A DNA stretch of 64,000 nucleotides, taken from contig NW_026570251.1 in assembly GCF_019649055.1 (NCBI RefSeq), forward strand, positions 1,054,001 to 1,118,000, read 5' to 3'. The DNA is from Paramacrobiotus metropolitanus (Eukaryota; Tardigrada; Eutardigrada; Parachela; Macrobiotidae). The position numbers and the translations under genes are program-made. The notes under the pieces were generated by a model. It had not been told where the DNA came from and searched no databases. It was given only the letters and a program-made list of their open reading frames with translations. Below, piece after piece: positions 4,331 to 64,000 of the stretch. The number at the start of each line of letters is the position of its first letter. Position 1 is the first letter of the stretch.

Positions 4331-4541
4331 CACGGCTGCTTAGCAACGCCGGTCGCCTACACGAATTTCCAACCTCAGTCAAGACTTGGCTTTCCCCCGC
4401 AACATTACTGTGATCGCGTCGTTTCTCCTGCCGCGACATTTCTATAACCGTGCCGTGTTCGATTTCCTCTCACACCAACATGAATGCTCGCATACGATTT
4501 TTATTGAATTACCGAAGTGACCTTTACGCCCGTTTCCCACC
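4331..4541 (+). promoter_or_regulatory. upstream region of FN3 paralog 1, conserved in the other paralogs
   Basis: Blocks shared with the regions upstream of the other three paralogs are GCTGCTTAGCAACGCC (4335-4350, resembling an RFX/X-box half-site), a TTTCTCCTGCCGCGACATTT block near 4420, GATTTCCTCTCACA near 4462, and GTGACCTTTAC at 4517-4527, which is 14 nt before the ATG. The TATATATCC element of paralogs 2 and 3 is absent, which fits loss of function. Promoter role is inferred from conservation only. Confidence 0.45.
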
Positions 4542-6366
4542 ATGCTCACTATGCCCGTTTCCGTGTTGCTGGTCGTCGTTGTAAGCCTGTTCAACAGTAA
4601 GTAATACATTGTTTTCGCTTGATTGTAATAATTATGGTTGTTCCTGTAGCTTGAATTCTTTTCGAAAAGGGTGTTAACTGATTACGCATGTCGTTTCTGT
4701 AACGGATCTGTAGAAAGCGGTCTGACTGTGATTTTTATGTTTACATACTCTGTGCATACAAACTACATACAAACTGTATTTTGAATATAAAGTACATTGA
4801 AGATGTACTGTAATTAACGATAAATAAGACGTGCTCTATAAATTAAATTAAGTAGGACGTGAATCACGTGATCAATAAATTTCTTAAAAAGGTCAGGACG
4901 GCGCCAGTCCGGCCTCGGCCGAGCCTCAGGAGACAGCCAGCGGTCCCAACGGCGACGCCAGGGGCAGCCCCGCCGCCTCGCCTTCCCCAGATCCCGGCAA
5001 TGCCATCCACCAGCCGAATTTCACCCAGCCTAATCAGAAATTTGTGCCTCCCACGGGCGCTTACACCACTGGCAACGCCACCTACTGGTCTAAGTCCATC
5101 CTGCCGGCCCGAGAAATGTATCAGCCCGGCGACACCCCTCAAGGTCAAGAGCAGGGTCCATTCAATGCGGCGGCCGACAAGCCGAAAGACGCCCGCGTGC
5201 CTATCCACCAAGCCAACATCCCGACGTCCGTTCCGCTGGTGCATTCCCGCGACACCTTCCAGTGGCCGGACTTCGATAACTACAGCCCGGAGGAAGATTA
5301 CGTATTCCACTATAAACAGGTAAAGGTCACATGTCTCGCTGGGCGATGCAGACGCTTGCATTTTATTACTACTACTAGCAGACCCCGCGCAAATTGCGCG
5401 GAATAATTAATACGATCGGCAAATCATAACCAAGAGTAATGCAGAAATTAAAACTCATGACTGCCACCTGCAGGTAAATTGTAGGTTTTATTGAAGAAGC
5501 CCAAATTTCTACAATATACGGAAGTCCACAGATGACGATAATTTCTACTGAAAAATTTTGCCTGTCGCTTTAATTGACTGCAAAGATGACCTTAAACCTG
5601 AAATGCGAAATATTTTTTGCGAAATTAAAGCGAGAAATGTTTTTCATTGGTTTCCCATTTCGTAATTTCCAGAACGGTTATCAGTCATTTAAATTGCGTA
5701 CACCTCCTGCATAGAGACTCCGTAATTTATTAGAAGTTGCTCTCCTTTCCCCTTTTTTGGCTCTAGAGTCGTAGACTCTAGAGCCTGACTAAATTTAAAA
5801 CGGCTTTAAATGATGTTAACTGGAAGACAGTGAAGTCCCTTAAGAAGTGTTATCATACTGATCATGTGCAGCTGTTGGAAATATGAATGAGTGTTATTTT
5901 TTCTGCCTATCGTTGTTCGATATCTTGTGTTATATTTTAATTATGACGAGTCTGCTGCCTCGGATTGGGTCTTACCCAGATTGTGTGCGGACGTTAAACG
6001 ATTAAACTTAACTTGACTATGAGATAAACTTTACTTAAACTTGAAATCCTAATTTTAGTACTAACACCAATGGTGCCATAATGCCATTTATGTCCCAGTT
6101 TAACAATCAGTACACTAAAAAATGCTCTACTTGCTATCGCTATTCCTTTTTAACTATTGCTTTGACCACAGAACACATCCAAAAATTTTTAACTAAAAAT
6201 AAGAACAGAAGCATTTCGTTGTGTTTCCTTCCTTGCTTTTAACCCTTTTTCAAAATCGGGAACTGTTACGCAAAATTGGTGCATGCTTGCTGCTCCGCGA
6301 GCTCCGCTCCGCCTTCCACTATGCTATGTAGCGAACTGAAAAATCTATTTGTCCTTTTTTATTCAA

Positions 6367-6550
6367 GGGAACTGGTCCAGTACATGATACAAAATTCGTG
6401 TACACTGTACATGCACGAAAATCTTGAGTTTCGCGCACTCCCAAACACATTTTGTTTCGTTTTATGCCATTTTATAGCCAGATGATCTGATTTGTATACA
6501 CTGGCGAAAAAACCGTTTACGCGCGCAGAATCAGGTTCAGGGGTTATGGC
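6367..6550. repeat. half-copy of foldback element family A
   Basis: GGAACTGGTCCAGTACATGA, then TCGCGCACTCCCAAACACATTTT and a GTATACACTGGCG...GCGCGCAGAATC segment, match one arm of the full foldback at 42336-42798 and the half-copy at 39993-40165. It lies in intron 2 of FN3 paralog 1. Confidence 0.6.
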
Positions 6551-6939
6551 TGGCAGAAAATTCCAACAACTTTAAACGCATTCCGGTGTACCAAAAGTCT
6601 CATTATGGATCTCATCGCCATGAAGATCGTTTTTACACCGATCCACTGTTCCAGGATGCATTTTAAATTTTAAAATTTATTTTAAAATTTAAAGGAGATT
6701 TAGAGGAAAATTTAGAGAACTGTTCCAAGTTGCCCCGTTTGCCTTTCTTGAACATCACCTTACCTTATGTATTGAAAACGAAAGCGTAGCAATTGCCCGA
6801 AATCGCAGGCAGTTCTGTAAGAAAGGCAATCGCGCCCGCCCGGCAAGGCAATTTACAACGTAGTTAAGCGAAAACTAAGTACGTTAAACCACTGCGGGTG
6901 TCACGTACGTTTTTAAAATCAATCTTTAGAACCGTCCCA

Positions 6940-6994
6940 AAAGAAAGAAGACAAATGGCTGCGGAATCTTCGCAGCCATTTGTCTTCTTTCTTT
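6940..6994. repeat. perfect 24-bp-arm hairpin
   Basis: Arm 6940-6963 is exactly complementary to 6971-6994, with the 7-nt loop GAATCTT between them. It lies in intron 2 of FN3 paralog 1. No terminal repeats or target duplication were seen around it. Confidence 0.85.
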
Positions 6995-7542
6995 GTTGTA
7001 TTTTCTTTCTCCACACCAAATTTTGATGAGAAATTTACATTAGAACGATGGAATATTATGGAACGCGAAGTCCCATCCAGGAGCATAGAATCAAAATCAG
7101 CGGATTTTTCTGATCTAGAATTTACTTTTCAAAACCGGAAAAGGTCACGACGCAACTCTGAACTCTGACTGCCAGCTCCCTAGCGCCCCACAATTACCCT
7201 TTTTTTTTCTCCAAAAACCGATTTGGGATGGCAAATGCCGCAAATCTACACTTTAAGAGCTATCGAATGATGCGTAGTCATCGCAGTTTGGTGCAGTGCG
7301 TCGAGCTGGCGAACTCAACAAAGACTAAGGCTTGCGCGATTATTATACAGAGTATATCTGGTGATGATAATGATACTACAGTGTCTGTACCTACTTAAAT
7401 TCGCAATCAGTAAATTTGTGTTATTACTATCATTATCGTTATCCGATCAGCCAACAAAGGCGTGCAAAACAATTGTGAACTGAGTGAATAATAAAGGGAG
7501 GAAAGGCCCAAACCACATACAGCAAACCAACAGAAATACCAC

Positions 7543-7611: not shown

Positions 7612-7733
7612 TTCGGATAGGATTAGGGTAAGGAAATCTTCCGATGCCCATCTCTACGGTGCACTGCGTTGACGCTAGCGAATGAATGAGCGCGGCAGCG
7701 GCTGAGTATCAGCTGTGCCGTATACTGTAGCAT

Positions 7734-14420: not shown

Positions 14421-15220
14421 ATTAATTAGGTTCCAAATTTATTTTCAGTAAATTGTGTTTGATATATGTACATCGGCTGAATGACCTTCAATACCTTACA
14501 GTGGCCAACATCACGGATGCGTGCATAACCGGAAATCGTCGACGGTAGCGCCACATCTCTGCTTTTTGACTTCATCCTGCAGGACGGCAACCAGCTGGAC
14601 CTCGAAGGCTTCGAGGTGAAGTACGCGTTTGATGGACAGCCCTTCGAGCACGCTGCCACTCGCTTCCTGGGCCGTTTCTCGCCCTACATTATCACCGGAC
14701 TGCAGCCCAGACAACGCTACCGGTTCCGTGTTAATACTCGTGTCAGCGGCGGCGGTGATTCCACGCAAGCCTGCGGCCCCGAATTTATCATTAACATGCC
14801 GGAAGTGGGCGCGCTGCTGGCACCAAAGGTTGCGCAGTCCAATTTGGTGTCATTCGAGCTGCAGTGGGAGCCGTCCGATAAGGATGAGGCCATCGGCCAC
14901 TACCGCCTTGATTACTGGATGGTAAGCGGCATTTGCCGAAGCAACGGAAGGGTAACAGCGGCTGCAGTATTTTATCCAATAACAAAACATATTTCTAAAA
15001 CGTTTTATATATCATTCTTTATACATTTTTATATTAATTCTATGCGTTTATCGTTAAAATAACAATAATATTATTAATTCTTGTCGATTTTAAAATCTTT
15101 CGATTATCAGTTATTGGCAATTGCGCGAATTCAAAAACCGTCTAGCAACAGCTAAATTTACTATTATTATCAAAGTAAATAGAAGCGAAACAATTTATAA
15201 TACAATTATAAAAAATAAAC

Positions 15221-23247: not shown

Positions 23248-24848
23248 TATTTTGTTCATTTATTTGGTACTATGAAAAAAATGAAATACCGGTATATTTT
23301 ATTATATTATTTTTACAATTTTGTATAACTTTGTAGTAGATTACTAATTTCTGGTTTCATCTAACTAAGAACATTTTGTTTCAGACTACAGTACACTGGT
23401 ACGAAAGATCGCACGATTCGCACAATAATAATAAAATGTGAAAGTCTGCATCGACCAGCGGGACGTGTGACCTTTACCTTGTTAAAGTGGATTTGATATT
23501 CTTTGTCCGGGCTGTCGTTTTCAGTGTCCATTAACGGCCACCGGTAGGTGAGGCGGGAATGCTCCGGCGGGACGGACGTCGGGATCTTGGCCTGGTGGAG
23601 AGGCACGCGGGCGTCGTTCGGCTGGCCGCCCTCCACACCGAACGGACCCTGCCGTTGACCTGGAGGGGCGCTGCCGGGCGGATTCGGCAGGACGAACTTG
23701 GGCCAGTAGGTGGCGTAAACGGCGGTGTCGGTGCTCGCGGGAGGGACAAATTTCTGATTAGGCTGGGCGAAATTCAGCTGGTCGGTTGTATTGCCGGCGT
23801 CTGGGGAGGGCGAAAGGTCTGCGGCGGGGCTGCCGCTGGCGTGATCGCTGGGGTCGCTGATTGTCTGCTGAGGCTTGGCTGAGACCGGACTGGCGCCGAC
23901 CTGACCTGTTGGAGAAATTTATTGATCACATCCTACTTAATTTAATTTATTGACAACGTCTTATTTAATTACATATATTTAATGTATTTGATATTCAGTA
24001 TGTACGTACGAGCGCGCGTATGTCTCATTGCGTTTAGTAGATGCGTATTTCTCATTGCGTTTAGTAGATATTGCACAAGCATTTGAAGAAACATTTTTTT
24101 AAAATTGTGGCTAAAGCATTTTTCCATCGGATTTTATCGTACGTATAGCTCATAGAGTTCATAAGCTTAATAACTTCTGAGTAACAGAATTTTATTTAAT
24201 ACTCATTTTTTTAAAGGTTTTAGATGTCTTCCTCAAGGTTAAATGGGCGTAATCGTTTTATAAAATAGTGATTATTTTATTACGGAAACATAAAACAAAT
24301 ATTTATGGCGCAATAATTAATGACGAACATCAGTTCAACTAATTATACGGCTCCGACGCTTAAGTACATAGTCGTTTCGACTTTTAAGTGATGTCGACGG
24401 TGCCTCGTTAAAAGGGTCGAAGAAGCACGTGGTAATACTTGCTTAGCACAGGAGTATGATTACAATAATAAGCACAAGACTTTTCGGTTTTTTATTAATT
24501 ATTTTTACTAGTTATTTATTACTGCCGAAATTTTTATTATCAAAGGATGGTATAACTACCGATGCTGGACATTTCACATACAGTACGTAAATGTCAGTTG
24601 TTATTAATGTTATTGAAAAATGATGAAAATTGTACCGTTCACTTGATACAGTGCTTAGCTAATAATTCAGCAACTCCTTGATCTTTCTCAAAACAAATAT
24701 ACGTAAAAATCAAAGTCAGAGCTGTCTACACTATATTATGTTCAGTAGAGCAAGTTGTTCTGAGCAGCGACATGCGAAGAAGCTAACACATACTGTTGAC
24801 CAGGCCAACAACGACGACCAGCAATACGGTGACTGGCACGGGGAGCAT

Positions 24849-25085
24849 GTTGGGGGGGAGACGGCGTAAAGGTCACTTTGGGTACATCTTTGAAAATCGT
24901 GTGCGTGCGCAAGCGCGTTCATAACAGGTGTGAGAGGAAATCGAATACATCACGATTAGAGAAATGTCGCGGCAGAGGAAACGACACATGGGACAATAAT
25001 GTTGCGGGGGAAAGCCCGTTCTTGACGGATATATATAGGCAAGCGGGAATTTGTTTTGGCGATTGGCGTTGCTGAGCAGCCGTGC
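24849..25085 (-). promoter_or_regulatory. promoter region of FN3 paralog 2
   Basis: Read on the minus strand: GCACGGCTGCTCAGCAACGCC (25065-25085, X-box-like), TATATATATCC (25028-25038, TATA box, 180 nt before the ATG), CTGCCGCGACATTTCTCTAA, GATTTCCTCTCACA, and GTGACCTTTAC at 24876-24866, 17 nt before the ATG. All blocks recur in paralog 3 in the same order. Function is inferred from conservation and TATA position. Confidence 0.55.
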
Positions 25086-29028: not shown

Positions 29029-29043
29029 AAGTCTGTAGTCCAG

Positions 29044-31629: not shown

Positions 31630-34600
31630 TCACAAAGTAAATCCGGAATTCTCCACACTTCCGGTGACGATAGCTGCAAAACCGCACACACAATCATCAC
31701 ATCAGTTTTAAAGTATTAAATTTTACAGCATTTGCTTCATCTGTTTTATTAATGTTTTAATGTTTCAATATTATGAAAAATAACTATTAAATTAAATGCT
31801 GAATTAGTTAGTTAAATAGTTATTAATTTAAAAAAAGTAATTTATTATTAATATTTCATTTTCACCCCTAATATAAGAAAGTGACCTTTACACAGGAGCG
31901 TTAATAAATTTTTGAAATATCCAGTCTGTTTTTTAAGGAAATTTTAATTGCAGCTGTTGTTAATAAAAAGTGACCTTTACTCAAGCACGCGGAATTACAA
32001 CGTACCGCAACCCGTGTTGAAGTGCAGCTTCATCATGTCGGGGCTGCGGGACGCCGGGGTGGCCTTCTTGGCGTGGGCGCCTCCGGTTCCATTGTTGCGA
32101 CCGTTATGGCGTCCCTTGGGTTTGCCGCGCGGCGAGATCTCCACTTGGTACTTCTGGCAGGGCTGCAGTGACGTCAGGGTGTAGGAGTTCTTGTTGCCTT
32201 CCACCATCTGGTAGCTGTGCGACGACGCTTCACCGTAACGGGGATCCTGGGTACGAGAACTGCACCATGCATTTTTTAAATTTGTTTTTAAATTGGCGCA
32301 CAATATTTTACAGCAATTCCATTATTTCCATATGCTACTTCGTATTTTGTTAACATTATTCGATCTTTTAATAAAATTTATTCCCACAAAAGAAAAATAA
32401 TAATTTGATTTCATTTACACTTGAATTTGAATTTTTAAGAAAAATATGGTTCAAATTGTCCGTATATTCCTAATACCGGTAGACTGCATAATTTAAACAT
32501 CGCAATGAAATTTACTAACACTGTGGGCGAAATAGAAAATTAATAAATAATATATGCGAACCAGTTCTTGTGATTTATTATATTTTTAATCCTTTTATTT
32601 CGCAATTACCGTTTAATACGTTTTTATTTTACTGTAATAGTTACTAATAATTGTAAGATTTACGTATTCGCGAGTTTGGCAATAACTTTAATTTAAATAT
32701 TAGTAAAAGAAATAATTATTTTCATTACTTTTAATTAATAATTAATTACTTAATTTTCTCAAACTATTTTTTTATTTTTTTATCAATTTTTATTTTTTTG
32801 TATGTTTTTAATTACAAAAACCTTTTTATACGGTTTGTGTGTCTTCTAATGATGTCTGCTGACTACCTCCCTTTAATATCACAATACTTATAATTAAACT
32901 GGTTAAAGTAACTGCAGCCGCTGTTGACCTTTCGTTGCGTTCGGCACATGCCGCTTACCATCCAATAATCAAGGCGATAATGCTTGACATCTCCCGCTTC
33001 ATGGGGCGGCTCCCACTGCAGCTCGAAAAACACCGGATTGGACAGGGCGGGCTTGGGTGTCAGCGGCGGACCCACATCCGGCATTTCGGTCAGAAACTCC
33101 GGGCCGCAGGTCTGGCCGGAACCGCCGCGGCCGCTGATGCGGGTATTGACGCGGAAGCGGTAGCGTTGGCTGGGCTGCAGTCCCGTGATGGTGTAGGGCG
33201 ACCAGCGGTCCAGGAAGCGGCTGGCGGCGTGCTCGAAGGGCTGATCGGCCAGCGCGTACTTCACCTCGAAGCCCTCCAGGTCCAGCTGGCTGCCGTCCTG
33301 CAGGATGAAGTCGAAGAGGATGCTGGTGGCGCTGCGGTCGACAATCTCCGTGATGCAGGCGTCCGTGCTGTTGGTCACTATGCGGGTAAAAGGTCACGCA
33401 ATTTAAACCGGTTATATACTCGTTGTAACAACCAGTTCATCAATAATATTATTAAATTAATAATAATATAATAATAATACAATAATAATAATAATAAATT
33501 TAAACCAAATTTATTGATAATATTTAATTAATAGTTTAATATTTAATTATTATTTAATTTCTTTGTTGTAGTTTGTGTGTTTTTTCTAATAATTTGTCTA
33601 TTGCATTTTGACTTGACCAATAAAAATTGAACATTAATTGTTTTATTAATATTAGTTTTTAATGATTTAATATTTAATAGTAGATTTTTTATTTTTTATT
33701 TTAGTTTCAGCCTCTAATTAACCATTTACAGTAACAGTTATGTTATAAAACCTTTAACAGTAATGAACACGTTGGAGTATTTTTTCAATACTTACGATGG
33801 TGGCAAAATGGAGATTATTATTAAAGTTATTAAAAATTATTAAAAATATTAAAAATTACTAAAAGTTATTAAAGAATTTAAAATTACTGAAGAAAGTTAC
33901 GTATTTTAAAGTTTAATTTTATCAAAAATTAGGTTTATTTTTAAAAAGTTTAGAGAAAAGGACTAAAAATGAATGGGTAATTGACTACTAGTTTGTTATG
34001 TTAAATTTTCTTCGATAGTTGGTTTAAACTGCTGGAAACCCCGTAAAGCAGAAAGGCTAAATAGCCGGCACCATACCAGTTGGGGTTATGAATGTGATGG
34101 CTAGTGGAGGACTTTGTCCGTGCTCATTCTTGGCGTACACCATCGCGTTATACTTCGTACCCTTCTCCAGATTCTGCAGATCCGCAAAGTCCGCCACGGA
34201 GTTAACCACCTTGAATTCCACTTCATCAGTCTGCAATTGATAGACTTTTTCGTTAACATCTAACAAGAAATAATAAAGGTCACTCCTATGCGCCCCTGAA
34301 TTTTAGCGCCCATAGTAATTTTTGCAGTGCGATGCACTGATGAACACCTATTAACATCTAACAAGAAATAATAAAGGTCACTCCTAAGCGCCCCAAAACT
34401 TTAGGTCGCATATTTGGCGTTTCCGGATCAAATCTGGTTAGACGAAAACTGATCGACTGGACGCAAAAAACAGCTTTCGCAAAAAAATTAAAAAAGACTG
34501 GGGGAAAATTTAAAAATAGAATGCGGTGGTGAAATTGATTTCCCACTCGTAGGAATTGTACAGAGTACAAGAAAGGCAAATATTGAAATAAAAAATTATT

Positions 34601-36361
34601 TACCGGAATTCTTGGGCCGCATAGCACTTTCGTTATTATTTATTTATAATATAGAATCGTGCTTTTAATTTAAATACAGTTACTAATTATTAATTATTTT
34701 AATTTAATTATGGCTTTGGTATGATCCATATAATTATTTTTATAACTGGCTTGAATTTGCCAGGATTACATGATTAATGGAAAAAATCGCTGTATATAGC
34801 GCACGCATACATCGGCCAATACCTAGCTGGCGCCGAGACCTTTACCTTTTTATAATAGACATCGAACCCAGTTACTGGGGCGCCGTTATCCATGGGCTCC
34901 TTCCACTGCACCCGGTAGGTGACCAGGGAGTCCTTCAGCGGGACGGACGCCGGGATCTTGGCCTGTTGCGGCCCGCGGGTGTCGTTCTGCTGGCCGCCCT
35001 CCTGGGCGGGCCCCTGACCAGGACTTTGGCGGCCGTCGAAGCCGGGTGGGAAGAACTTCTGATTGGGCTGGGCGAAGCTCGGCTGGTCGGTGGCGTTGCC
35101 GGGGCCGGTGGCGTTGGAGGCGTCGGGGGCGGGGCTACCGCTGGCGTCACCGCCGGGACCGCTGGTTGTCTGCTGAGGATCCGGGGAGGCCGGGCCGGCG
35201 CCGTCTTGACCTGTTGGAAAATATATCAATTTATTGCAGTTCAGTATATGAACTTTTACGTAGTACAGTATTGCGATTTTTCCCGATTTTTAATGTGAGA
35301 AGTTTATCATTTTGTTAAGAGAGATTTTAATTCAGGCATTACTGCATCCATATAAAAATGCCAAATAAATGCTTGACGTCAGCAAACGGGAGCGATCATT
35401 AATCGAAATTAAAATCGGGAGCGATCATCGAAATTAAAATTAACAGTATTGTCAAAAATTTTTTGCTTCTTTTATATTTTCACACAGTCCACAGACACAA
35501 TTGCGGTATGCAGTGTGCACATTCATACAAAATAAGTACTACCTAGAATTAAATATTCGCTTCCTTTCATGAGCAACCTAATTTTTCGCTTGTTTCTAAA
35601 TTACTTATATAAATTTGTTTTTAAGTGATTAATCGCAATTTATCAATCAATCGAATATTTTTATAATTTATTATTTCCCTACATAATAACAACACCTATC
35701 ATGCAGTTCGTTGGAAAGGGTCAAAAAATAAAAAGCGTTATTCGAAAATTTGTGCATGGAATTTGATTGAAAGACTGGCATGGAAATTTGTGTCTGAAGC
35801 CGGCAGACGAAAGTAGAACAAAAGGAAACCGAATAAATTGCTGCTAACGGCACACGTTTGTCGTCGTGCATTCACAAATGAGAATCAGAATAAAAAATAA
35901 AATTAGCAATTCCATCATAAAACGAATCTGCAAATTATTAAATTATAAAATTTAAGAGAACTTTAAAATCACCATAAAATGAGAAGAAAAAATTAACACA
36001 AAAAAATGAAAAAATAAAAATTGTTATAAAATAAATAAAAAAATCATTATAAAATTAATAATACCGCGATAGCAGTTGCCAATGCATGGCGCTAAAGTAC
36101 ACGATTAAATACATATCAAAAAACAAATGGTAAAAAAGGTGTTAATTAGGCTACTATTGGCAAAGGGCTTCATCTTCATCAATAGGCCTTCAAAGTCAGA
36201 CAGCCCTAGACACCACAGCAACAAGACAACCGCGATTCTCATAGCCAACGCCCTTTTGAAATATTAACTTTAGAAATACGTCATAAATCAATAAAAATGT
36301 AGTACGTACTGTTGACCAGGCCAACGACGACCAGCAGCACGGCAACGGACACGGTGAGCAT
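31630..36361 (-). CDS. FN3 paralog 3: intact secreted protein with three fibronectin type III domains
   Basis: Exons in transcript order are 36361-36310, 35210-34846, 34230-34077, 33377-32959, 32246-32006 and 31673-31630. They sum to 1275 nt (424 aa plus stop) and every join is in phase with a GT donor and AG acceptor. Residues 1-18 form a signal peptide (MLTVSVAVLLVVVGLVNS). About 20-100 are a disordered Gly/Pro/Gln linker. FN3-1 spans about 105-190 (VQWKEP and YNAMVYAKNEHGQSP mark the B and F strands). FN3-2 is about 191-285 (ILFDFILQDG, YRFRVNTR) and FN3-3 about 286-410 (ELQWEPP, YQVEISPRGK). The tail reads VTGSVENSGFTL. No transmembrane segment is seen, so the protein is probably secreted. 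Its partner is unknown. It is the only unbroken member of four local paralogs. Exon 3 could instead start at 34259 after TTAG, but only the CAG acceptor at 34231 keeps phase. Confidence 0.8.
34253..34392. repeat. direct duplication of a 41-bp intron-end segment
   Basis: TTAACATCTAACAAGAAATAATAAAGGTCACTCCTA-GCGCCC occurs at about 34253-34293 and again at about 34350-34392. The copy near the exon spans the start of exon 3 sequence of FN3 paralog 3, so an acceptor-side junction has been copied back into the intron. Confidence 0.75.
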
Positions 36362-36577
36362 GGTTAGGGAGAAACGGTGTAAAGGTCACTTTGGTATAAT
36401 TCTATGCAAATCGTCTGCCTGTTCTATAGATGTGAGAGGAAATCGAAATGCTAGAGAAATGTCGCGACTGGAGAAACGACACGCTGGCAAATGTGTTCAC
36501 GGGAAAGCCCGGTCCTGCTGGATATATACGGCAACGGGAGGCGGGATCGCGACCGTCGTTGCTAAGCAGCCGTGCGT
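36362..36577 (-). promoter_or_regulatory. promoter region of FN3 paralog 3
   Basis: Minus-strand order: GCACGGCTGCTTAGCAACG (about 36557-36575, X-box-like), TATATATCC (36522-36530, about 165 nt before the ATG), a CAGTCGCGACATTTCTCTA block, GATTTCCTCTCACA, and GTGACCTTTAC (36389-36379), 17 nt before the ATG. The order and spacing match paralog 2. Confidence 0.6.
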
Positions 36578-37465: not shown

Positions 37466-39726
37466 ATGCAGACGGCATGGCACTGGCTGACCTTTACGGC
37501 ACACTTATTGTCTACGTGCACGGCACAGTCGTTCTCGCCGGTGGCGGATGCGTTTGCCCGGAGTCGCATCGCGCCGGATGTGCTGGACACTCCGCCCAAT
37601 ATGATCCTTGCTGTGAGGAAGCGTAGTGTATATTGTAAAGATTACCCTCATATTATGTGTGTCTTATTTTTTGTGATATAGTATTTTTATTTTGTATTTT
37701 TTCTGTTACTATTTGTTTGAATTCCTGTGTCACCGGTACTTTGCGCTGCTCTCCAGCATTTTGTTTTTAATTTTGTTTAGCTTTTTAGCATATTGTTTTC
37801 CTTTTTATTTTTAAAAACTATTCTCATATTAATCAGGTTTTATAATTGTAACGATTTTAATTTGTATTATTTGTACTGGTAGTATTATTTATTTCATTTC
37901 TGTATATTATGCCCACACGTGCTACTTTTAATGTATTGTTTTTTATCAGTCAGTATAAATTTCTTCAGTTTACTTTTGTGCCACTTATTCTTGCTCGATC
38001 AGTGTGCGTTTTCATGGAATGGATCGTATAATTTGGAATATTTTTAAAATTTGCGAAGCATTAATTGATCGCCAGCTGAAAAAGTACACGTCTGTTGTAA
38101 ATTCAGGAAAAGGTCACCGATTACTTATCCTGATTAGCATTACTTTGCATTAATAACAATTGCCTAATCAATAACAAGTATTAAATAAATACCGCCGTGA
38201 GAAATAAAAATAAGTGCCGTGAGAAATAAAAATAAATAAATACCGAATAAAACAAGATTAATACCATACAAGTGGCAATCATCGCCGCTTTCGTCGCAGA
38301 AGCCACAAGGTGTCATACTGTATATCCTAACAAAAACTTATTCCGATCAACGTTAGTAATTTTTGCTTAAATACACTGTTTAACATCGCGAACTGTCAAC
38401 GTTTGCAGGCGGCATTCGGCAGTCATCCCGTGCAGCTGGGCAACGAACTGACGCCGACGGATGTCATTAACCAACCGGTCCTGGTGTGGAGCTACCTGCT
38501 GCCGGCCACGCGCGACCCGCCCCTCTTCACACTGATCGAACTCGGTATACACTAATGAGAACAGCCGCAGCGTGATATCTCTCCATCATTTCGAACACTT
38601 TAATTTTCGAAACACCGGAAAATTTTAAAAATAAATTACAAACGGACTAGAAGAAAATGATTATGTAAAATTGATTAATTTTATTTCCTACACTGAAATG
38701 TTGCTGCCGTACAACGCCAGAATATTCTAGAATTAAATTACCAAAAGCTTAAATTTCTGACGTGCTACGCAAATTTAAAATAAACTGAAAATTGATTAGA
38801 AAAGAAATTAATAACAAAAAATAAGAGTGTTCCTGTGTTGCAAATTGTGACCAGTGTATTTTTTACAATTTTATTTTTGAACTGAAAACAGATTTGGACG
38901 CTCCCACCGCCACTAACACCAGCTTCCGGTCAGTGCTGCACTGGCTGGTGTACAACATCCCTAACATGGATCTGGCCCGTGGAACGATACAGATGCCGTA
39001 TACCGGCAGCAAACCCGATGCCAACACTGGTGAATTTTATAGTACCGTTATTTCACAACGTCCAAATTCGGCACTGTTTTCAATAAATTCAGTTTCTTTG
39101 CTGTAAATTCCATACATGGACGCAGAATATTTTACATGGTAATTAGGACATAATAATGTAAATCTGACATATATTTATTCATAGTTGATTTTTATTTTGA
39201 TTCTATTTTCATTGATTAAATATTGTTACGGCTGTGTTTTTGATAACTATGACAGTTAAAATAAGGAGTTATTCTAATGAATTTATTAGAATAAAAATAT
39301 TTGGTTTTAATTTTAATAAAATTTACCAAAATTAGTTAGCCTACCATTAAATATTTTTTATTTTCACATCGTCGCTGTTTAAACTGAGCATTCAGATCTT
39401 GGCCTAGATCGTTAATAATGGCTGACACGCTGCCCAGAAAAACTCGTGAAGCGAATAATAATTTTTTATACTGAGTATGCGTGACCTTTGCCTTTTCTTT
39501 TGCTGCAGGTCTGCATCGCTACGCGCTGTTGCTGTTCCGACAGCCGGCGCGACTAACGCTGCCCCCGGTGGGCAATCCCAATAATCCCGCCGCGCGGATC
39601 GGTTTTGATCTGCGCAGTTTTATTCAGCGGTACAATCTGGGTCAGCCGGTGGCCGGCAATTTCTACGTGGCACAGGCCGATGCCTACTCGACGCTATTCT
39701 GGATGCTGGCCGGCACACCGAAATGA
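37466..39726 (+). CDS. secreted phosphatidylethanolamine-binding protein (PEBP) family
   Basis: Four exons (37466-37612, 38409-38544, 38892-39029, 39509-39726) join in phase to 639 nt, 212 aa. Residues 1 to about 21 (MQTAWHWLTFTAHLLSTCTA) look like a signal peptide. The PEBP fold is recognisable from NELTPTDVINQP, LDLDAPT in place of the usual DPDAP ligand-site motif, VLHWLVYNIP, TGLHRYALLLFRQP (the GxHR motif) and a C-terminal FYVAQADAYSTLFW. PEBPs bind phospholipid head groups or act as regulators of kinases and proteases; a secreted member could do either outside the cell. The usual proline in DPDAP is leucine here. Length is near the family norm of about 190 plus signal. A broken copy of its last intron and exon lies at 45.8-47.8 kb, on the far side of FN3 paralog 4. 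Confidence 0.85.
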
Positions 39727-40189: not shown

Positions 40190-40452
40190 TTCACCCGCGC
40201 ACAGGCGGCTGCTAAGTTGTTTTGCTGTTTTTGCCGTGTTTTTCTCCAGACGCCCTAGCAACGCGTCTTCTGTCTGCCTGGTCTCCCGTGGCTTATATTC
40301 CTTCACCACCAGACGTTTTCCCGTTTCTCCAGTTCGACATTTCTCTAACCGTGCGTGCCGTTGCGATTTCAGTTCACATCGCTAACACTGTCACTGTATC
40401 GTACGATTTCTAAAGAACGACCCCCGTGACCTTTACGCGCTTTTCGGTAACC
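40190..40452 (+). promoter_or_regulatory. promoter region of FN3 paralog 4
   Basis: Shared with paralogs 2 and 3: CCTAGCAACGCG (40253-40264), a TATATTCC box near 40293-40300 about 155 nt before the ATG, CGACATTTCTCTAACCGTG, GATTTCAGTTCACA, and GTGACCTTTAC (40426-40436), 16 nt before the ATG. Confidence 0.5.
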
Positions 40453-42335
40453 ATGCGCAGCGTATCCATTAATGCCGTGTTGTTAGCCGTCCTTGGTGGC
40501 CTTGTCAGCAGTACGTATTGCATTTCCTTCCGTTTGTATTTGTATCACGTTCTTTTACATCGTGAATGCGTTCAAAAAAGGGCGTTAACGTTGGTTTCGG
40601 GATGATTGTGTGACTTGTGTCGTTGCTGCGACTTCGATGTCCTCTGTACAGCTACCTACGGTGGGCTGATTACTAGCATTTAGAATAGGTTGGCTATGTG
40701 TTTAAACTCAAATTCTAAACCATTAATCGATTAGTTTTTCTTTGATTGCGTTTGAAATGAAAACTGTAATTATCCAGTGCATGTAAGTTGCTGCAACATA
40801 CGATTATTTCATTTTAATTTGGTTACTCTTGCATGTTGCCTACGTATACACTGTAGCCCTACAGACATGCATGTAAAATTTGTTTGCTGATATCAGCAAG
40901 ACACGGGTTGATTTTGTTTAAGTCTGTACCAAAACCTTTAAATACTGTATGTAAATCACCGTGCCCGTTTCATTGGAGCTGGCGTCTGACAATCGAAAGC
41001 ACAAAATGTAGTTAAAATTTTAACTATTATATACACAGACAATTTATGGTTAGATTTATAGATTTTTTCGTATACATGTAGTTATTTTTAGTATTATAGT
41101 ATTTTGTTTTATAGTCTTGTATTTATACATATCTGTCTTCCTAACAAAACAACATACACAGAAATGGTCATATAGTTTTCAGAAAAACGAACTCTGTCAT
41201 TAAACTTGAAGCTATTCAGCAGCTATTCATGTAGTGCGAAACATGTGCGGTCGCACCAGTGACCGGTGACCGGAATATGAATAGCGAAGAACTGAAACAG
41301 TAAAATATCGAAAAATTATACAGAAGGCAAATATTTGAGACCTGACTGATACATTATTGTATCAACAGGCAAGGACGGCATCAGTCCGGGCTCAGCCGAT
41401 CCTCAGCCAACAACCAGCGGTCCCGGTGGCGATAGGTCCGTCAACGACGCCGCGTCATCTAACGACACGCGCAGCGACGCCGGCTACGACACCACCCGGC
41501 GGAAGACCGCCCGGCTCCCCGACGACGACCAAGATTACGCCACCCGGCCACCGCTGCACCAGGCTAAGGTCACTGCGTCTGTTCCGCTGAAACAGTCCCT
41601 CGTCACGTACCGGCTGCAATGGAAGGACGCACCAGATAACGGCAGTCCGGTGGACATGTACTGGATCTTCTGTAAACAGGTAAAGGTCGATCGCAGAGCA
41701 GAGGGCAAAAAACGGTTAGCTTTATGAAAAACCAATAAATTTTCCTTCCATTATAAAATTTTTTTTTAACATAAGGTTTTTTTATGAAATTCGTTGCGCA
41801 GATAGGTTACTTTAATTATACAAACTTAAAATATAGAAAATTAATAAGCATATTTCCGGGGCCATGTCGTCACGGCAAGGCAAATGCAACCACGTGTACA
41901 GTAATGCTTTATGGCTCGTAGGCTCTGTATGCTGTAGTTTGCTGTATGGAGCGCTATCTTATGAGTTCAAAACAATCAGATTATAGCTTAAAAGAATGCC
42001 TAGAACTTGGATCTAGAACTTCCTGATCGAGGGCTTGGATTTGACATAACAGCAAACAGCATGAAAATAATTTCATATACATTTTCTTATTTTTCTCTTT
42101 TTTTATTGCGGTACTTTTTCAGTCATGATGCATTAATGAATTCTCGCTTTGACAGAGAGATGAACCGCCGATTGGCCAGCCGAACATGGTGAGCTCCGTG
42201 GCGGACTTTGTGGATCTAAAGGGTCTGCAGCCGGGGGAGATCTATGTGGCGCTAGTGCACGCCCAGAATAAGCACGGATTCAGTTCCCCACTGGCCATCA
42301 CTTTCAGAACCCAGTCTGATAAGCATACTGCTTAG

Positions 42336-42798
42336 GGGAAATGGCCCGGTACATAGCGTCAAAAATGGGATACATACACTAAAACTTTCGCTTGCGCGCA
42401 CTTCGAATCATTATTTTGTAATACTTTATGTCATTCTAAAGCTAAATGATTTGTATACATTGTTCTGAAAACCGTTTGCGCGCGTAACATCCGGTTGCTG
42501 AGATATGTTGTATTAAAATGGGCGAAAAGTTTAAATTTCAAAGTTTCAAGAAGATCGGATAATAACCAGACTTTTGGTACACAGCAATGCATTTAAACTT
42601 TTCGCCCACTTTAATACACCATATCTCAGCAACCGGATGTTACGCGCGCAAACAGTTTTCAGAACAATGTATACAAATAATTTAGCTTTAGAATGACATG
42701 AAGTAATACAAAATAATGATTCGGAGTGCGCGCAAGCGAAAGTTTTAGTGTATGTATCCCATTTTTGACACTATGTACCGGGCCATTTTCCTTAAGGC
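42336..42798. mobile_element. foldback element family A, about 190-bp arms
   Basis: Left arm 42336-42530 starts GGGGAAATGGCCCGGTACAT. The right arm (42600-42798) is its inverse, ending ATGTACCGGGCCATTTTCC. The arms contain CTAAAACTTTCGCTTGCGCG and ACATCCGGTTGCTGAGATAT. About 70 nt separate them. The flanks are CTTA and TTAA, so a TTA or TTAA target duplication is possible. It is inserted 18 nt after the broken exon 3 donor of FN3 paralog 4. Confidence 0.8.
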
Positions 42799-43991: not shown

Positions 43992-45779
43992 TTTTTTTTA
44001 TTTAAATAGTACAGATAATGCAATTAACGAACTGCTTGTAACACCGAGTATAAACCAGTTAAAATTGCATGACCTTTATCCCGCATAGTGACCAACAGCA
44101 CGGACGCCTGCATCACGGAGATCGTCGACCGCAGCGCCACCAGCATCCTCTTCGACTTCATCCTGCAGGACGGCAGCCAGCTGGACCTGGAGGGCTTCGA
44201 GGTGAAGTACGCGCTGGCCGATCAGCCCTTCGAGCACGCCGCCAGCCGCTTCCTGGACCGCTACTCGCCCTACACCATCGGCGATCTGCAGCCCAGCCAA
44301 CGCTACCGCTTCCGTGTTAGCACGCGCCTCAACGGCCGCGGCGGTTCCGGGCAGACCTGCGGCCCCGAATTCACCACTGAAATGCCGGGCGAGGATGTGC
44401 CGCTGCCGCCCAAACCCGCATTGTCCAATCCGGTGTCCTTCGAGATGCAGTGGGAGGCGCCCAGTGAAGCGGAGACTGTTCAGCACTACCGGCTGGATTA
44501 TTGGATGGTAAGCGACTAAGCGGCATGTGCCGGTGTAACGGAAGCTGTCAACAGCGGCTGCAGTTTTTACTCAAAAATAACAGCGTTTTTTGCGAATAAA
44601 ATAAACCAAATTAGAAGTAGCATTTGCAGTGAAATGTAATAAATATGCTATGAGAATTGCTTGCGTACTATTAATTTTTTTCAGGTTTTATTGTGATTCC
44701 AATTTGATATTTGCATAGTGCGGCATAATTACATAGCAATGATTACACGGAAAATTCAAATCAAGTTTACAGTTAAGATAATTAAAAATTTAAATGGTAT
44801 GTAAGCTTATAAAAACTTAAATTATTTACATTAAAATAAAGTAATAAATAATAATCCTAAAATTTTTTAGTTTTCTACAAATTAGTGTACACCAAGTTGT
44901 TTAGTTTTATACCAACTTTTATGGTTTTATACCAAATTTATACGAGTACGATAATTAAAAATTCAACCAAAATTTAAGCAGGGAACAAATCAATTTATTT
45001 ACATTAACACAAAACGATAAGAATAATTTTTTTAACAAAAATAAAAAATAATCATAATAAAAGTGAATTATTATTTTCAGGCCGCAGCATAAAAATTATT
45101 AATGTTAGTAAAATATGCTATGGCAAATGCGGTTAATTATTCCCCAACATGTAAAACAAGTTTAACCAGTGCATGGTGCAGTTCTCGTACCCAGAGTCCC
45201 CGTTTCGGTGAAGTGCCGGTACACTACTATGAGATGGTGGAAGGCTCCAAGACCTCCCACACTCTGACGTCACTGCAGCCCTGCCAGAAGTACCAAGTGG
45301 AGATCTCGCCGCGCGGCAAACTCAAGGACGCCATAACGGCCGCAACAACGGCGCTAACGCCACAAACACTGCTCAAGCGACCCGCACCGCCGACGTCATG
45401 AAGCTGCAGTTTACTACGAGCTGCGGTACGTGGTGACTGAGCGCTCCTGTATAAAGGTCACAAATTCCGTATACTAATATTGTGCACGGATAATTGCAGC
45501 TATTGTCACCGGAAGCGTAGAAAATCCCGGATTTACCTTGTGGTAACATGGCGGCACGCCTCATACAAATTCCCAAATTATGTATAACGACGTGCATGAT
45601 TGGTTGATGGGTGCGTTTCTAATTGTGCCTTGTAGCCAAATACAAATCACAATTATGTACTCGTATAACAACTCTCACAATGTTGGATTCTTTCCGAAAG
45701 CCGGATTTCGGCGCTTTTTCGACGCTCCTGTCGCGGCAAATTCAAATTTACAAAAAATTCATTATAATTATATATGATA

Positions 45780-47844
45780 TTGGTAACTAGAATATCTAGA
45801 AGTGTACGAAAATCTAACATATGATGAATTTTTATTAATGTAATTATGACTGTGTTTTTAATAATTATGACAGTTCAAATACGGAGGTAAATATGATGAA
45901 TTTTTAGTTATAAAAATTCTCTTATTAATTCTAATAAACTTACCAAAATTATTTAGTTTATCAATACCTATTTAATATTTTAATATTTTCCCATCGTCAC
46001 CGTTAGACTTCTGAGCGTCAAGTCCATGGCATACAGCATTAATACAGACTGCAGTAGCTCGCAGCGCTGCCGAGAAAACAATATTTATAAACCTAAAATA
46101 AATAATAGAAATGAAAGAATTTTATTTTCATTTACGATTTACGAAATATAAATAAACTAAATAAATAAATTTAAAAATTAAATTATTTCTAAAAATTAAA
46201 AATGATTTTATTACGAGGGTTGTTAGTTATGTTCTGTCGTGCGTATATTAGTTATGAAACTTAAAATATGAAATTATTATTAAAAAGTAGAGCATATCAT
46301 AACTGTAATAGTAGGCTAATGGTCGAGTCAATGGGTGCTCTCGGTGGCACTCAGCGGGAGTCAGAGAACGACTCACTCGCACCAAATTTAATTCGCAAAT
46401 TAAAAATGGCGCATTAACACCCGAACGTGGGCTTGCGCTATTTCACATTACAATTTTTTAAAAAAACTGGGATGCAACCCATTGACTATCTGAAGTGCTT
46501 GTTATGTTGGGGATTAAATGTTCTTCTGCGCGTGAACTACTGAGCGCTTGTCTTGTCGTTTTTATTCTGGAATTTTAACAAGGGATGGCGAGAGCAGATC
46601 GGAACGGTCTGTTTGTTGAGGAACCTAAAATAGCAAGCCATCCTGTTGCGCTTGGCAGACACCGATCCCCAAATGTGTTCGTCCGATGGATGGACAGGGA
46701 ATCATAGACCAGATCCCCAGTAACAGATTCTGTATTGCGCGTGGATCTGACTTTCAGCGAGGCGGAGTACCGTCGGGCACCACTTGCGCTGACTAGTGGT
46801 TACTGGTGCTTTTGCAATTAATGCTCCGTAGCAAAGCCAAACTTCTTTCCTTTAGCCATCAATCCTAAGACTACACTCACGACAGATCCTGATTTGCTTG
46901 GCGCCATACTTGGTGGAAGCAGTAGAGCAGAACAGGGTTTTGTCAATGGAGTACGAGACCAAGAGCCAAAAAGCATTCGAAGAAACGTTTATGTTGGTGC
47001 GCCTCGCAGCAATGAAATTATTTGCAGAAGCCTTTTCTGTCGGAAATAACTATCAACTGTTTACAGTAATCTGCAAATACCTTGACAACTTTCTTTGAGA
47101 AAACGCGAAAAAATGGAGGCGGGAGTTGGTCGACTGGTGTAATTGGCACCACAACGGACCCAAACCAAAAGCCTCTAAATATTAAAAAAATTGTTTTGCT
47201 TAATCGCTAGTTCGGATATTCATGTAACCTAAATATTCGATAAGCTTGATCCTGCACAGGTTCAAAATTTTTCCGAATCGGAAAGATTCGTTGCAGAGAA
47301 ATGAAATAACAAAAAATAAGAAAATTAAACGAAATTTCCAAGGTGCCTTCGTTCAAAAAATTTATAACTTTTTTGTATCATATTTACAAATCTGGCAACA
47401 GATGAAAACGATGCATTAGGAGTTTAGTAATAGTAATATGAAAATAATATAATAATTGCATGAATCCAAAAATAGATAAAACTATTACGACAGAACATAA
47501 CTAACAACCCTCGTATTTTAAAAAAAATTAAAATTATTTCTAAAAATTAAAAACAATTTTTTTTAAAATAATAAAATCATTGTTCTAAACGAATGACGCT
47601 TGACCTTTGCCTGTTCTTTTGCGGCAGGCCTGCATCGCTATGCGCTGCTTCTTTTCCGGCAGCAGCCGCGAGTCGCGCGACTAACGCTGCCGCACGGTGG
47701 GCAATCCCAATAATCCCACGGAGCGGATCGGTTTTGATCTGTGCAGTTTTATCCAGCGGTATAATCTGGGTCAGGCGGTGGCCGGCAATTTTTACGTGGC
47801 ACAACTCCACGCTTTTCTGGATGCTGGCCGGCGCGCCGAAATGA
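45780..47844 (+). pseudogene. broken duplicate of PEBP intron 3 and exon 4
   Basis: 45840-46080 aligns with PEBP intron 3 (about 39220-39470), and 47600-47844 aligns with its acceptor (TTGACCTTTGCC...GGCAG) and exon 4. Exon 4 has one extra base (CTGCCGCACGGTGGG against CTGCCCCCGGTGGG) and an internal deletion near 47805, so it is out of frame. PEBP exons 1-3 are absent. A mariner-like element (46212-47515) splits the intron part. The segment must have been copied to the far side of FN3 paralog 4, perhaps when that paralog was formed. Confidence 0.75.
46212..47515. mobile_element. mariner-like element, degenerate
   Basis: Ends TACGAGGGTTGTTAGTTATG and further bases are identical in inverse orientation for about 29 bp at 47487-47515. 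TA borders and a length of 1.3 kb are typical of mariner elements. One plus-strand stretch (FWNFNKGWRE near 46570) resembles a mariner N-terminal region, but stops interrupt it and no intact transposase frame is present. The 66-codon frame at 46898-47098 is not recognised. Confidence 0.6.
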
Positions 47845-60400: not shown

Positions 60401-63400
60401 CAGGATGCCGGCAAATAGTCCGTTAGCCGCGTGCGAACAGTCCACCGTGAAGACCTTGGTGTTCTTCGTGATCAGCGGCCGGTTCTGGCCCGGGTTCTCG
60501 CGCTGCCCTATGACCTTTCGGGGAACGACAACCGCGTCATTCAACGATTAGGAGGTTTATTTTTCTTGCAGTTATGCGCTGTTTTGCTGTAGACCGCCGC
60601 GCCATAAAAAAAAACATTCACGTGGATTGTGCCAACAGCACACCTTGTCGGAAACTTGTAGTCTAATGGCATTAATGCAGAAATAAGATGAGCTCTTTAA
60701 TATTCTTGTTTAACAAACAGCACGAGTATTTAAAAATTAATTTTTTTATTATTTGCAATAATAAAAACTGCAACTCCACCCTATGGTGACGCCAGACTTA
60801 GCGGAAAAATTTGTAGTGTAACGGCAATGTGCCATTCTTAGCTGACGGAATTTCTATAGTCTTTGCTATTCGTATTTAATCAATTGCTAGTTTAAAAAGT
60901 ATCTTTCCGCCTTTTTTGATTATATACATAAGTATACAAAATAAATTACTGCAAAATATAAAAGGAGATTAAAATATCAAAACAATGAATAAATATAATA
61001 TATTTAAATATTATGTAATAAACAAATTTATCTATATTACATAGATTGGTGAAACACTTTATTTATGCATATATGGTCATAAGATTGCATTTCTAAATAT
61101 TATTTAATATTTATCATAAATAATAAAATCTAACAAAGTGTTATTAATAAATAAGCGTACATAAAATACTTATACAGAAATGGTGCGATCTTGCTTGTAT
61201 TATACCCATTCCGCTTATAGAAAAACAAATAAAAACACATCAAAGTTCACTCAATCAGCACAAAACAGCCTCGGGAGGTCTACGAACAGAGAACAACTGA
61301 TCTAAATTCGCTCCCGGTGGAGCCGTTAAAAATTAAAATGGTTGCATTAAACCGGTTTATATGACGCACCTTCCACATGACGAACATGATGCCGGCACAG
61401 ATGAGGGCGTACTCGATGATGCAGGGAAAGAGGAACATCACCGACTGGCTCATCATCTCCTGCACGGCCGACTTCTCGTTGACACACAGCGGATTGTAGC
61501 CCAGGGCGCCGGCGCGATACGTGTGCACCGGCGGCGACGTGACGATCTCCAGGCCTAGCTCGATGCTCTTGTTCTCCGCCTTCTCGATGTCGTCAAACTC
61601 CAGCATCGTCTCGTCAATCAGTGTCCGCATCCAGATGCACAGGTCCGTGGCGATCAGGTGCGCCAGCCCGAACCGGCTCACCGCGCGGAATTTCGTGATT
61701 TTAAACTGTTAAAAAATTAGTCTTTCGTTAAAGGTCACAACGCGTTGATTTTCCACCGACAGTCAGAGTTATGCTGCAAAAATTATTGGAAAATTATTTT
61801 TGATTCTTTAACTTGCATAGGTCAAACAACGAGCTTCCGTCGTAAAGGTCACAAAAACATCTTTTAACAACTGAACAAGAGTGATGTTGGAAAAACCGTT
61901 GCAGAACAATGATAAAGAAATTTAACGCTTCAACAATGGCGAACATTATAAAGGTCCCAAATTGGGAACAGTTTTTTAGTAGCAAACAAATGATGTCGAT
62001 AAAACTGCTTCAGAACATTTAGTTATAATTATGTACAAAATATGTGCCTTTTAGCATAATTAAAGAGGGTTTTAAAAGTTTTAAAAGTTTAAAAAATATG
62101 TGCCTTTTAGCATAATTAAAGAGGGTTTTAAAAGTTTAAAAAGTTTTGAATGTTTTGAAAGTTTTAAAAGTTTTAAAAGTTTTAAAAGTTTTAAAAGTTT
62201 TAAAAGTTTTAAAAGTTTTAAAAGTTTTAAAAGTTTTAAAAGTTTTAAAAGTTTTAAAAGTTTTAAAAGTTTTAAAAGTTTTAAAAGTTTTAAAAGTTTT
62301 AAAAGTTTTAAGACTTGGCCCACTTTGTACCTACAGTGAAATAATACATATGTACATTAAATTTACTGTAAAATAAAATATTAATATAGACTACTAATAT
62401 TAGATAAGGACTAAAAATAATTCGTAACTGGTGGTGTAACTGTGCACGGTGACCTTTACCTGGGAATTTTTAAAGATAAAATATAATTGTAGCAGGATGA
62501 AGATGATGGAGATACAGGGATTAAGTCCCATGACGATGCCGAAGCAGGAGCGATTCTCGATGAACACGCCCAGCTGCATGCACGAATAAATAACGGCGCC
62601 CACGGCGAACATGGTGGCGCCGAGTTTCAGGTAGAAACTGCCGGTGTACACGTCATTCGTGGCCATAATCCGGCTGACACTGCTGGGCGAGCGCCGGTCA
62701 CGACGCCGCGGTCGGCGTTGTCGGAACATCCACAGGAAGGCGAAGCTGATCCACAGGATACTGATGGCCATCAGGAAGAAGTCGTACCACTGCGAATGAC
62801 AACGTAAAGACACGCTACAACGGCCAATGCAGATTTAGATTAGATTTTTTTAACCTTTTCATTTAATAAGTTTATCGAACCATCTAGTAAAGATTGTTAT
62901 AAGTCGTTAAATTAAAAGGATTGGCTATACTAAATGAATAAATTAAATGGGTTCGGAGAGTTAACTAATTTGAATTAAACGAAAGAACTGTTTAGTTAGG
63001 TAATTAATTAGTTAATTTCAACCAATTAATTAACTAATTAAGTAATTAACTAATCACTGTTTTTTGCAAACTTTACCTAATTAATTTAAAGTTTAAATTA
63101 TTTATTTTATTTTGAATTATATTAACTGAATTAAGTAATAAAATATATAAATACCGTAAGTCATAACTAAGCAATCTAGGAAATAAATAAAATTAAATTT
63201 TAATTTATCGGATTATAGTTGTGACTTGTGAGCATCATCGAGTATGTTGGGCTGTCCTGTATAATTAAAAATTTATAATTATGGGCAATACTGACCCGCG
63301 CATAATTAGGATCCATTTTGGTGGTCAGCGTGGAGGACACCGCCAACAGGAAGCCGGTCATCGTGACCAGGATACCGTAGAGGGCGCTGATGTGCGTCGA

Positions 63401-63413
63401 CAGCTCCTCTTCT
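57496..63413 (-). CDS. otopetrin-family proton channel, N-terminus missing from the model
   Basis: Exons in transcript order are 63413-63296, 62789-62460, 61705-61370, 60502-60164, 58852-58586, 58118-58057, 57966-57919 and 57610-57496. All joins are in phase and give 537 codons including about 12 hydrophobic segments. Family landmarks: FYLKLGATMFAVGAVIYS and LQLYFIFKNSQ (exon 2), RFGLAHLIATDLCIWMRT and VMFLFPCIIEYALICAG (exon 3), TVDCSHAANGLFAGILVMVL (exon 4), LQSTAQTVFLFDASKR and PAREMVMFLLATNFAQW (exon 5). REFYGAHQ, WAVLLHATVPLTIFYR and FHSTVCLFDIWKRAYK are split over the three short last exons. Otopetrins are plasma-membrane proton channels used in acid sensing and pH regulation. The first exon here starts mid-protein just before the first membrane segment, so the start lies beyond 63413, probably off the window. 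The 62-nt and 48-nt exons are easy to miss. Confidence 0.88.
62038..62312. repeat. 9-bp tandem array AAAGTTTTA, about 18 units
   Basis: Pure units run from about 62150 to 62312. Degenerate units and two copies of a 45-bp lead (AATATGTGCCTTTTAGCATA and following) run from 62038. The array lies in the otopetrin intron between 61706 and 62459. Because the unit is 9 nt it stays open in several frames on both strands; those frames are not genes. Confidence 0.9.
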
Positions 63414-64000
63414 CTAACAGCGCAAAAGGTCACCTGTTATTCTTGCTGATTAGTTGCACGTCGCGCTCCAGCGACTTAGTTTTTTTGCAATTACATAACA
63501 TTATTTCCACAGAAAAGCGTACCTCAATAAATTCGTACATGATAGCTTTGTTGAATATATCGTTCGATAACTATGCTAACAATTGTATTACATATTTTAA
63601 TTACAGTAACTGCATGATGACTACAACAGTGATTCGAATATACGAGTATGCACAAATTTGCGGCATACACAAATTTCTTCTCAGAACGGTAAAACGCGCT
63701 CATGCATTGTGAGAATTTTGTAGTCTAAGGGCGCGTACAAATGGTTTGTGATCCGTAAATATCTGAATTTGTAACTCGCACCGCTTAGTATACGAGATCG
63801 CAGCGCAACGTTTCCAATCTTTTGATATTAATTTCTATTTCTAAATTTATTTTTCTTTGGGCAGCTGATAACTTATTGTTAGCTGGTAACACAATCTAGT
63901 ACAATTGTGCATATGCACATATCTGTACGTATCGTATATCATTGTGACATTATTATGTACTCGTATTTATTATTTCTAAATTCAGTTTTTACTTCATAAT
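63414..64000. other. right edge, otopetrin intron or upstream region
   Basis: Contains the acceptor of the first modelled otopetrin exon with AAAGGTCAC at 63425-63433. I could not find an exon for the missing N-terminus here. Otherwise nothing recognisable. Confidence 0.4.

Follow-up and report, generated by a model that had tools for sequence, protein, structure and literature searches.

A nuclear-receptor-type word in excess in a tardigrade genome, an FN3/otopetrin gene cluster and an LTR-type retroelement

Results

A short word recurs across a cluster of FN3, so-called PEBP and otopetrin genes

The window, i.e., the whole stretch of DNA that was analysed (64,000 nucleotides), contains four FN3 paralogs, a so-called PEBP exon 4 with its duplicate, and an otopetrin gene recognized by Pfam; the name PEBP received no Pfam confirmation with the one frame submitted. 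Copies of the octamer AAAGGTCA/TGACCTTT, in both orientations, are found across these genes. In the original prediction, it was proposed that exons of these three families are bracketed by inverted copies of the word. Copies placed relative to gene features include the following, with the basis of each placement in brackets.

4517..4527, plus strand: GTGACCTTTAC before the ATG of FN3 gene 1 (exact match; paralog 5′ comparison)
24866..24876, minus strand: GTGACCTTTAC before the ATG of FN3 gene 2 (sequence; paralog 5′ comparison)
36379..36389, minus strand: GTGACCTTTAC before the ATG of FN3 gene 3 (sequence; paralog 5′ comparison)
40426..40436, plus strand: GTGACCTTTAC before the ATG of FN3 gene 4 (sequence; paralog 5′ comparison)
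5320..5330, plus strand: GTAAAGGTCAC at the exon-2 donor of FN3 gene 1 (sequence)
23467..23477, minus strand: GTAAAGGTCAC at the exon-2 donor of FN3 gene 2 (sequence; paralog comparison)
34837..34845, minus strand: GTAAAGGTC, then TC, at the exon-2 donor of FN3 gene 3 (paralog comparison)
41680..41688, plus strand: GTAAAGGTC, then GA, at the exon-2 donor of FN3 gene 4 (sequence; paralog comparison)
33389..33396, minus strand: TGACCTTT, branch-site-like, before exon 4 of FN3 gene 3 (paralog comparison)
44070..44077, plus strand: TGACCTTT, branch-site-like, before exon 4 of FN3 gene 4 (octamer search; paralog comparison)
31970..31980, minus strand: GTAAAGGTCAC in intron 5 of FN3 gene 3 (sequence; paralog comparison)
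31881..31891, minus strand: second GTAAAGGTCAC in intron 5 of FN3 gene 3 (sequence)
45453..45461, plus strand: AAAGGTCAC in intron 5 of FN3 gene 4 (octamer search; paralog comparison)
39482..39489, plus strand: TGACCTTT before the acceptor of so-called PEBP exon 4 (sequence)
47601..47608, plus strand: TGACCTTT before the duplicate of so-called PEBP exon 4 (sequence)
62449..62459, minus strand: GTAAAGGTCAC at the otopetrin donor (sequence; otopetrin by Pfam)
61842..61852, minus strand: GTGACCTTTAC in otopetrin intron 61704-62459 (sequence)
61728..61738, minus strand: GTGACCTTTAA in the same intron, before the next otopetrin exon (sequence)
63423..63433, minus strand: GTGACCTTTTG, about 15 nt upstream of a putative exon on the otopetrin side (sequence; exon-edge count)

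The copies before the four FN3 start codons, at the FN3 exon-2 donors and at the otopetrin donor read as had been claimed, and the 11-mer positions named in the prediction were mostly as given, with small errors corrected on re-reading. The copy reported at 14481, before FN3 exon 4, actually reads TGACCTTCAA and not CTTT. In all, the window holds 33 octamers, 16 of them on the plus strand, as compared with a mean of 2.13 (sd 1.56, maximum 8) in 100 dinucleotide shuffles, which bears out the predicted figure of more than 30 copies where about two would arise by chance. Ranked by z-score, AAAGGTCAC comes first among the 9-mers of the window (22 versus 0.38 expected), and the 11-mer GTAAAGGTCAC/GTGACCTTTAC occurs 10 times.

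An Rfam search of the window gave no match. Positions 697-822 are a 42-nt tandem repeat, whose unit recurs at C1:590501-595500 (L085); the AAAGGTCA at 618 adjoins it and is part of that dispersed repeat. An inverted-repeat element with 206-nt arms that are 95% complementary occupies 42331-42796, with relatives in L083, L086 and L001.

Conservation of the word between paralogs

When the 5′ regions are compared among the four FN3 paralogs, the longest invariant run is GTGACCTTTAC (11 nt; the next longest is 10 nt). At the exon-2 donor, GTAAAGGTC is kept in all four paralogs; beyond it, gene 3 differs at base 10 and gene 4 at bases 10-11. Within intron 5, AAGGTCAC is kept in genes 1, 3 and 4 and in a copy on C53, in a setting where much of the remaining intron has diverged. 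Upstream of exon 4, all four paralogs retain TGACC and two of them CTTT, the pattern expected of a branch site. The copy at 4888, which straddles the FN3 exon-2 acceptor, is a local substitution rather than a conserved site, because three paralogs read ACAG/G... there. Another predicted copy, at 32924 after exon 4 of paralog 3, is indeed present, but it is absent from the two other paralogs compared.

Otopetrin intron 61704-62459 has GTAAAGGTCAC at its donor and two inverted copies, GTGACCTTTAC and GTGACCTTTAA, farther in; it is the sole intron noticed with inverted copies inside one intron. Near this donor, at 62125-62311, a 9-nt unit, GTTTTAAAA, is repeated in tandem about 21 times. Nine other otopetrin loci contain 11 copies of the word, five inside exon blocks, one within 30 nt outside and five farther away, and bracketing by AAAGGTCA was not seen in these nine loci.

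A sharp and clustered genome-wide excess

Across the genome (169.8 Mb, 533 contigs), there are 42,584 copies of AAAGGTCA and 15,540 of its reversed control. A second-order Markov model of a 98-kb sample yields 2.77 expected copies of AAAGGTCA and 8.18 of the reversed control, which scale to about 4,800 and 14,200, respectively, in the genome. That is, the reversed control fits the model and AAAGGTCA lies far above it, in about 8.9-fold excess as extrapolated from 98 kb. Sixteen 5-kb stretches, sampled at chosen round-number rather than random positions on six contigs, contain only 8 copies in total (80 kb), and the flanks of the window, two stretches of 9 kb, contain 0 and 2; the excess is thus clustered. 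Among the first 100 plus-strand places on contig C1, 64-kb bins contain 3 to 11, apart from one bin of 27 that includes a retroelement described below.

The excess is also sharp. Single-letter variants of AAAGGTCA are mostly not enriched; CAAGGTCA, in particular, is not enriched genome-wide (6,338 copies versus 7,872 for its reversed control). AAAGGTCA is most often followed by C. No extended motif was found in the flanks of 35 GTAAAGGTCAC loci (40 taken, 5 dropped as retroelement or repeat copies), where position -2 is the most strongly biased, with C or T at 27 of the 35 loci. In sampled loci L001-L018, the top over-represented 7-mer is TACAGTA/TACTGTA (57 versus 18.4 expected).

Many of the window copies represent one ancestral site repeated in several paralogs, and merging them by hand leaves about 22 independent sites. 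Set against the genome-wide average of 16.1 per 64 kb, a figure that takes in retroelement copies, the unmerged count is an outlier (p 1.4e-4) and the merged count is not (p 0.09); set against the 16 sampled stretches, which average 6.4 per 64 kb, the merged count is exceptional (p 1e-6). It could therefore be argued from the merged count that nothing acts at these sites, and that an ordinary genome motif excess was multiplied by tandem gene duplication and noticed post hoc. We regard this as improbable: composition predicts far fewer copies than the genome mean, one-letter variants mostly lack the enrichment, no block of the FN3 5′ regions is better conserved than the 11-mer, and the retroelement count given below is not reached by synonymous shuffles.

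Exon-edge clustering is local

Within the gene spans of the window, 14 of 23 non-coding copies, four of which are the sites before the ATG and so at no splice edge, are 30 nt or less from the edge of a coding exon, versus 6.3% of random non-coding positions. This null is somewhat low, since the exon list, which was assembled by hand, omits the PEBP exons and FN3 exon 3, the conserved block of which is evident in sequence comparisons. The count leaves aside 8 of the 33 window copies, located outside gene spans, and scores the copy at 62450 as coding, because one otopetrin block overran its donor. With the otopetrin donor and PEBP copies added, 10 of 16 merged classes fall close to an edge, nine of them in the reported orientation.

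The clustering near exon edges holds locally, but no clear excess of the word at donors, acceptors or starts was found genome-wide. Here, short words served as proxies for splice sites and starts, and the expectations are rough, because the 98-kb sample from which they derive contains 11, 41 and 109 occurrences. Of 1168 copies of GTAAAGGTCAC, 55 (three in the window) come directly after AG, versus about 73 expected; AG precedes none of 40 GTAAAGGTCAC places examined, out of 45 listed on contigs C2-C4 and 100 listed overall, and one of the remaining five, on C4. GGTAAGT is followed within 30 nt by AAAGGTCA 66 times and by TGACCTTT 86 times, with about 74 expected for each, both match lists containing repeated strings. 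For starts, TGACCTTT followed by ACCATG was found 294 times versus 267 expected, and for acceptors, TGACCTTT followed by TTTCAG was found 762 times versus about 710 expected, with 32 of 100 places listed for the latter lying within 15 kb of reverse transcriptase (RT) copies. The original prediction had proposed a check of intron ends across the genome and had counted a lack of enrichment there against itself, an outcome that the result with the proxy words comes close to.

Introner elements are introns inserted as elements with inverted ends, and the first of three explanations that accompanied the prediction was that the copies are relics of such insertions. The otopetrin intron, with its inverted copies, one of them at the donor, resembles this layout. 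Nevertheless, the explanation is strongly disfavoured, and we would be greatly surprised if it were correct. Among eight introns compared, only the FN3 paralog introns match one another and the otopetrin intron matches none, with no intron body common to the families; GTAAAGGTCAC follows AG less often than expected; and copies also lie inside coding frames.

Alternatively, the copies could work at the RNA level, either at donors or close to branch sites, or because inverted copies pair with each other and thereby fold introns or mask a splice site. The clustering near exon edges, the orientation of the near-edge classes, the otopetrin intron with a donor copy and two inverted copies, and the TGACC kept before FN3 exon 4 all speak for this reading. 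We nonetheless deem it quite unlikely, given that neither splice sites nor starts show a clear excess of the word genome-wide, and given the otopetrin paralogs, in which one copy in 11 lies within 30 nt outside an exon block and five lie inside; moreover, the 5′ site shows no compensation for the base changes at the FN3 donors of genes 3 and 4, a point against pairing in RNA. An extended donor or branch-point signal, the second explanation offered, likewise shows no clear excess genome-wide, but it may apply to the window copies that lie 8-27 nt before acceptors, where the four FN3 genes all retain TGACC and two have lost CTTT. Taken together, these data do not support AAAGGTCA as a general splice or intron-insertion signal. 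The exon-edge copies in the window are in part ancestral sites multiplied by gene duplication and in part branch-site-like TGACC; local clustering at exon edges is only partly explained.

An LTR-type retroelement is loaded with the word

The interval C1:202001-222000 (L019 and L020) contains 88 copies of AAAGGTCA in 20 kb. Pfam identifies RVT_1 (3.4e-25) and gag-asp_proteas (1.5e-10) in it, and the RT piece has at least 42 matches in the genome (40 of 413 candidates scored). With a reverse transcriptase, an aspartic protease and many dispersed copies, this is an LTR-type retroelement; a 68-nt direct repeat (96%) at the cut end is the sole candidate terminal repeat seen. The arrays of the word reach 126 copies in 22.3 kb, versus 2.74 expected. 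Ten open frames of the element (12,711 nt) contain 60 copies, 47 sense and 13 antisense, and the sense copies fall 6, 24 and 17 times in frames 0, 1 and 2, respectively. Synonymous-codon shuffles of these frames (n=300) give 7.3 copies (sd 2.5, maximum 16), and therefore amino-acid sequence and codon use alone are insufficient to explain the load. Local tandem repeats contribute to it in at least two of the frames.

In three related array copies (L025, L026 and L028), the motif columns are 92-100% alike, versus 81-85% elsewhere, in six ordered comparisons. Two of these arrays lie about 9 kb from RT copies that are 75% identical to the first RT; hence, the load seems to span diverged subfamilies, array and RT being presumably part of one element. 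A further sampled locus, L012, which matches the RT region at 70% over 352 nt, has 0 copies of the word. Array copies show no significant preference for helical spacing of 10.5 bp (Rayleigh p 0.08); among the six periods examined, 12 bp gave the smallest value (p 0.005, uncorrected).

It is conceivable that the word belongs to the retroelement, in that an anti-silencing DNA-binding protein encoded by the element reads it, as with VANC, and that the host copies are chance, remnants or later co-option. The dense same-orientation arrays in related copies, the greater conservation of the motif columns, the load across subfamilies with RT 75% alike, and the presence among the ten frames of some without any Pfam match are all consistent with this idea, which has a precedent in VANC, as described in PMC5735166. 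We consider it unlikely, however, since host islands without retroelement similarity carry the word, namely the window, whose similarity to the retroelement amounts to two short matches (35 and 53 nt), neither covering a copy, and the island described next; also, no DNA-binding domain was detected in ten element frames with Pfam or in two with PDB.

A second host island

The interval C1:299001-311500 (L083 and L084) contains 17 copies of AAAGGTCA in 12.5 kb. It has no match to the retroelement pieces, it has other repeats in common with the window, and ten of its frames have no Pfam match at E 0.01. Two paralogous copies lie inside putative signal-peptide exons, as read by eye, and thus the word would not be tied to one gene position.

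A candidate reader of the word

The best PDB match of an exon that encodes a DNA-binding domain (on C45) is NGFI-B, 1cit (E 4.1e-21), and the frame downstream carries RTDSLKGRRGRLPTK, a stretch that we take to be A-box-like. Judged from these similarities, the genome appears to encode an NR4A-like receptor. Genes that are presumably ERR-like and NR5-like are also present, among 36 receptor loci, and their products could bind. ERR and NR5 receptors prefer CAAGGTCA. Given that AAAGGTCA is enriched and CAAGGTCA is not, i.e., the first A is needed for the excess, an NR4A-type receptor fits better than ERR or NR5. AAAGGTCA is the NBRE, the monomer site of NR4A, as spelled in the Introduction of PMC4777543 (its Discussion prints another spelling). 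Nuclear-receptor sites, the third explanation offered, are thus the best supported of the three, by identity with the NBRE and by the NR4A-like gene, with binding itself being a prediction.

Discussion

We propose that AAAGGTCA is a double-stranded DNA site for a sequence-specific protein, likeliest of NR4A type, which would be used in host islands and accumulated by a retroelement; we give this proposal an even chance of being right. It draws on the observed enrichment and sharpness of the word, its presence in both orientations, its conservation between paralogs, the retroelement load, the genome tests and the NR4A-like gene; protein binding, the identity of the protein as NR4A and the effect of binding are what we infer. 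In the proposed mechanism, an NR4A-type nuclear receptor is the likeliest candidate reader of the word. Host islands such as the FN3/otopetrin cluster would offer several sites, some kept between paralogs, and an LTR-type retroelement family would have gathered dozens of sites per copy, even in coding frames, presumably retaining them because occupancy aids expression or shields from silencing. Against the binding-site proposal, it does not predict the exon-edge clustering in the window (14/23); in addition, an RT-bearing locus, L012, lacks copies, and the sampled stretches and flanks are only about 3.6-fold enriched (10 versus 2.77).

More tentatively, and with a rather small chance of being correct, the word may be a shared licensing code. 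One protein, likely a nuclear receptor, would coat chosen host islands and the whole retroelement, coding frames included, and the element would be under selection to write the word throughout, thereby staying expressed or escaping silencing.

Exon bracketing would have meant a new intron mechanism, and the genome tests argue against it. The binding-site proposal that would replace it is testable: a receptor-type word exceeds expectation about ninefold, and in a retroelement it is kept in all frames against coding constraint. If confirmed, this would be a clear animal case of a transposon and its host sharing a regulatory word, with one word and one candidate receptor. Among the papers listed in literature searches, we found none that we judged relevant to AAAGGTCA in tardigrades, which does not prove that the finding is unpublished.

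Three known systems can be compared with this one. The likeness to introner elements lies in the one otopetrin intron with inverted copies, one at the donor; unlike introners, the copies have no common intron body and no genome-wide tie to AG/GT. VANDAL21/VANC21, from Arabidopsis anti-silencing, is a mobile element with dense arrays of a short motif in one orientation, as described in PMC5735166, and such arrays are what it has in common with the present case. Here, by contrast, the element is an LTR-type retroelement in an animal host, its copies lie also in coding frames, the word is common to host islands, and an element-encoded binder was not found in the frames searched. With the NBRE, as given in PMC4777543, the 33 window copies have the same eight letters, and an NR4A-like gene is predicted in the same genome. 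The copies described here, which are candidate sites only, differ from the NBRE as known in their roughly ninefold genome-wide excess and in being packed into a retroelement.
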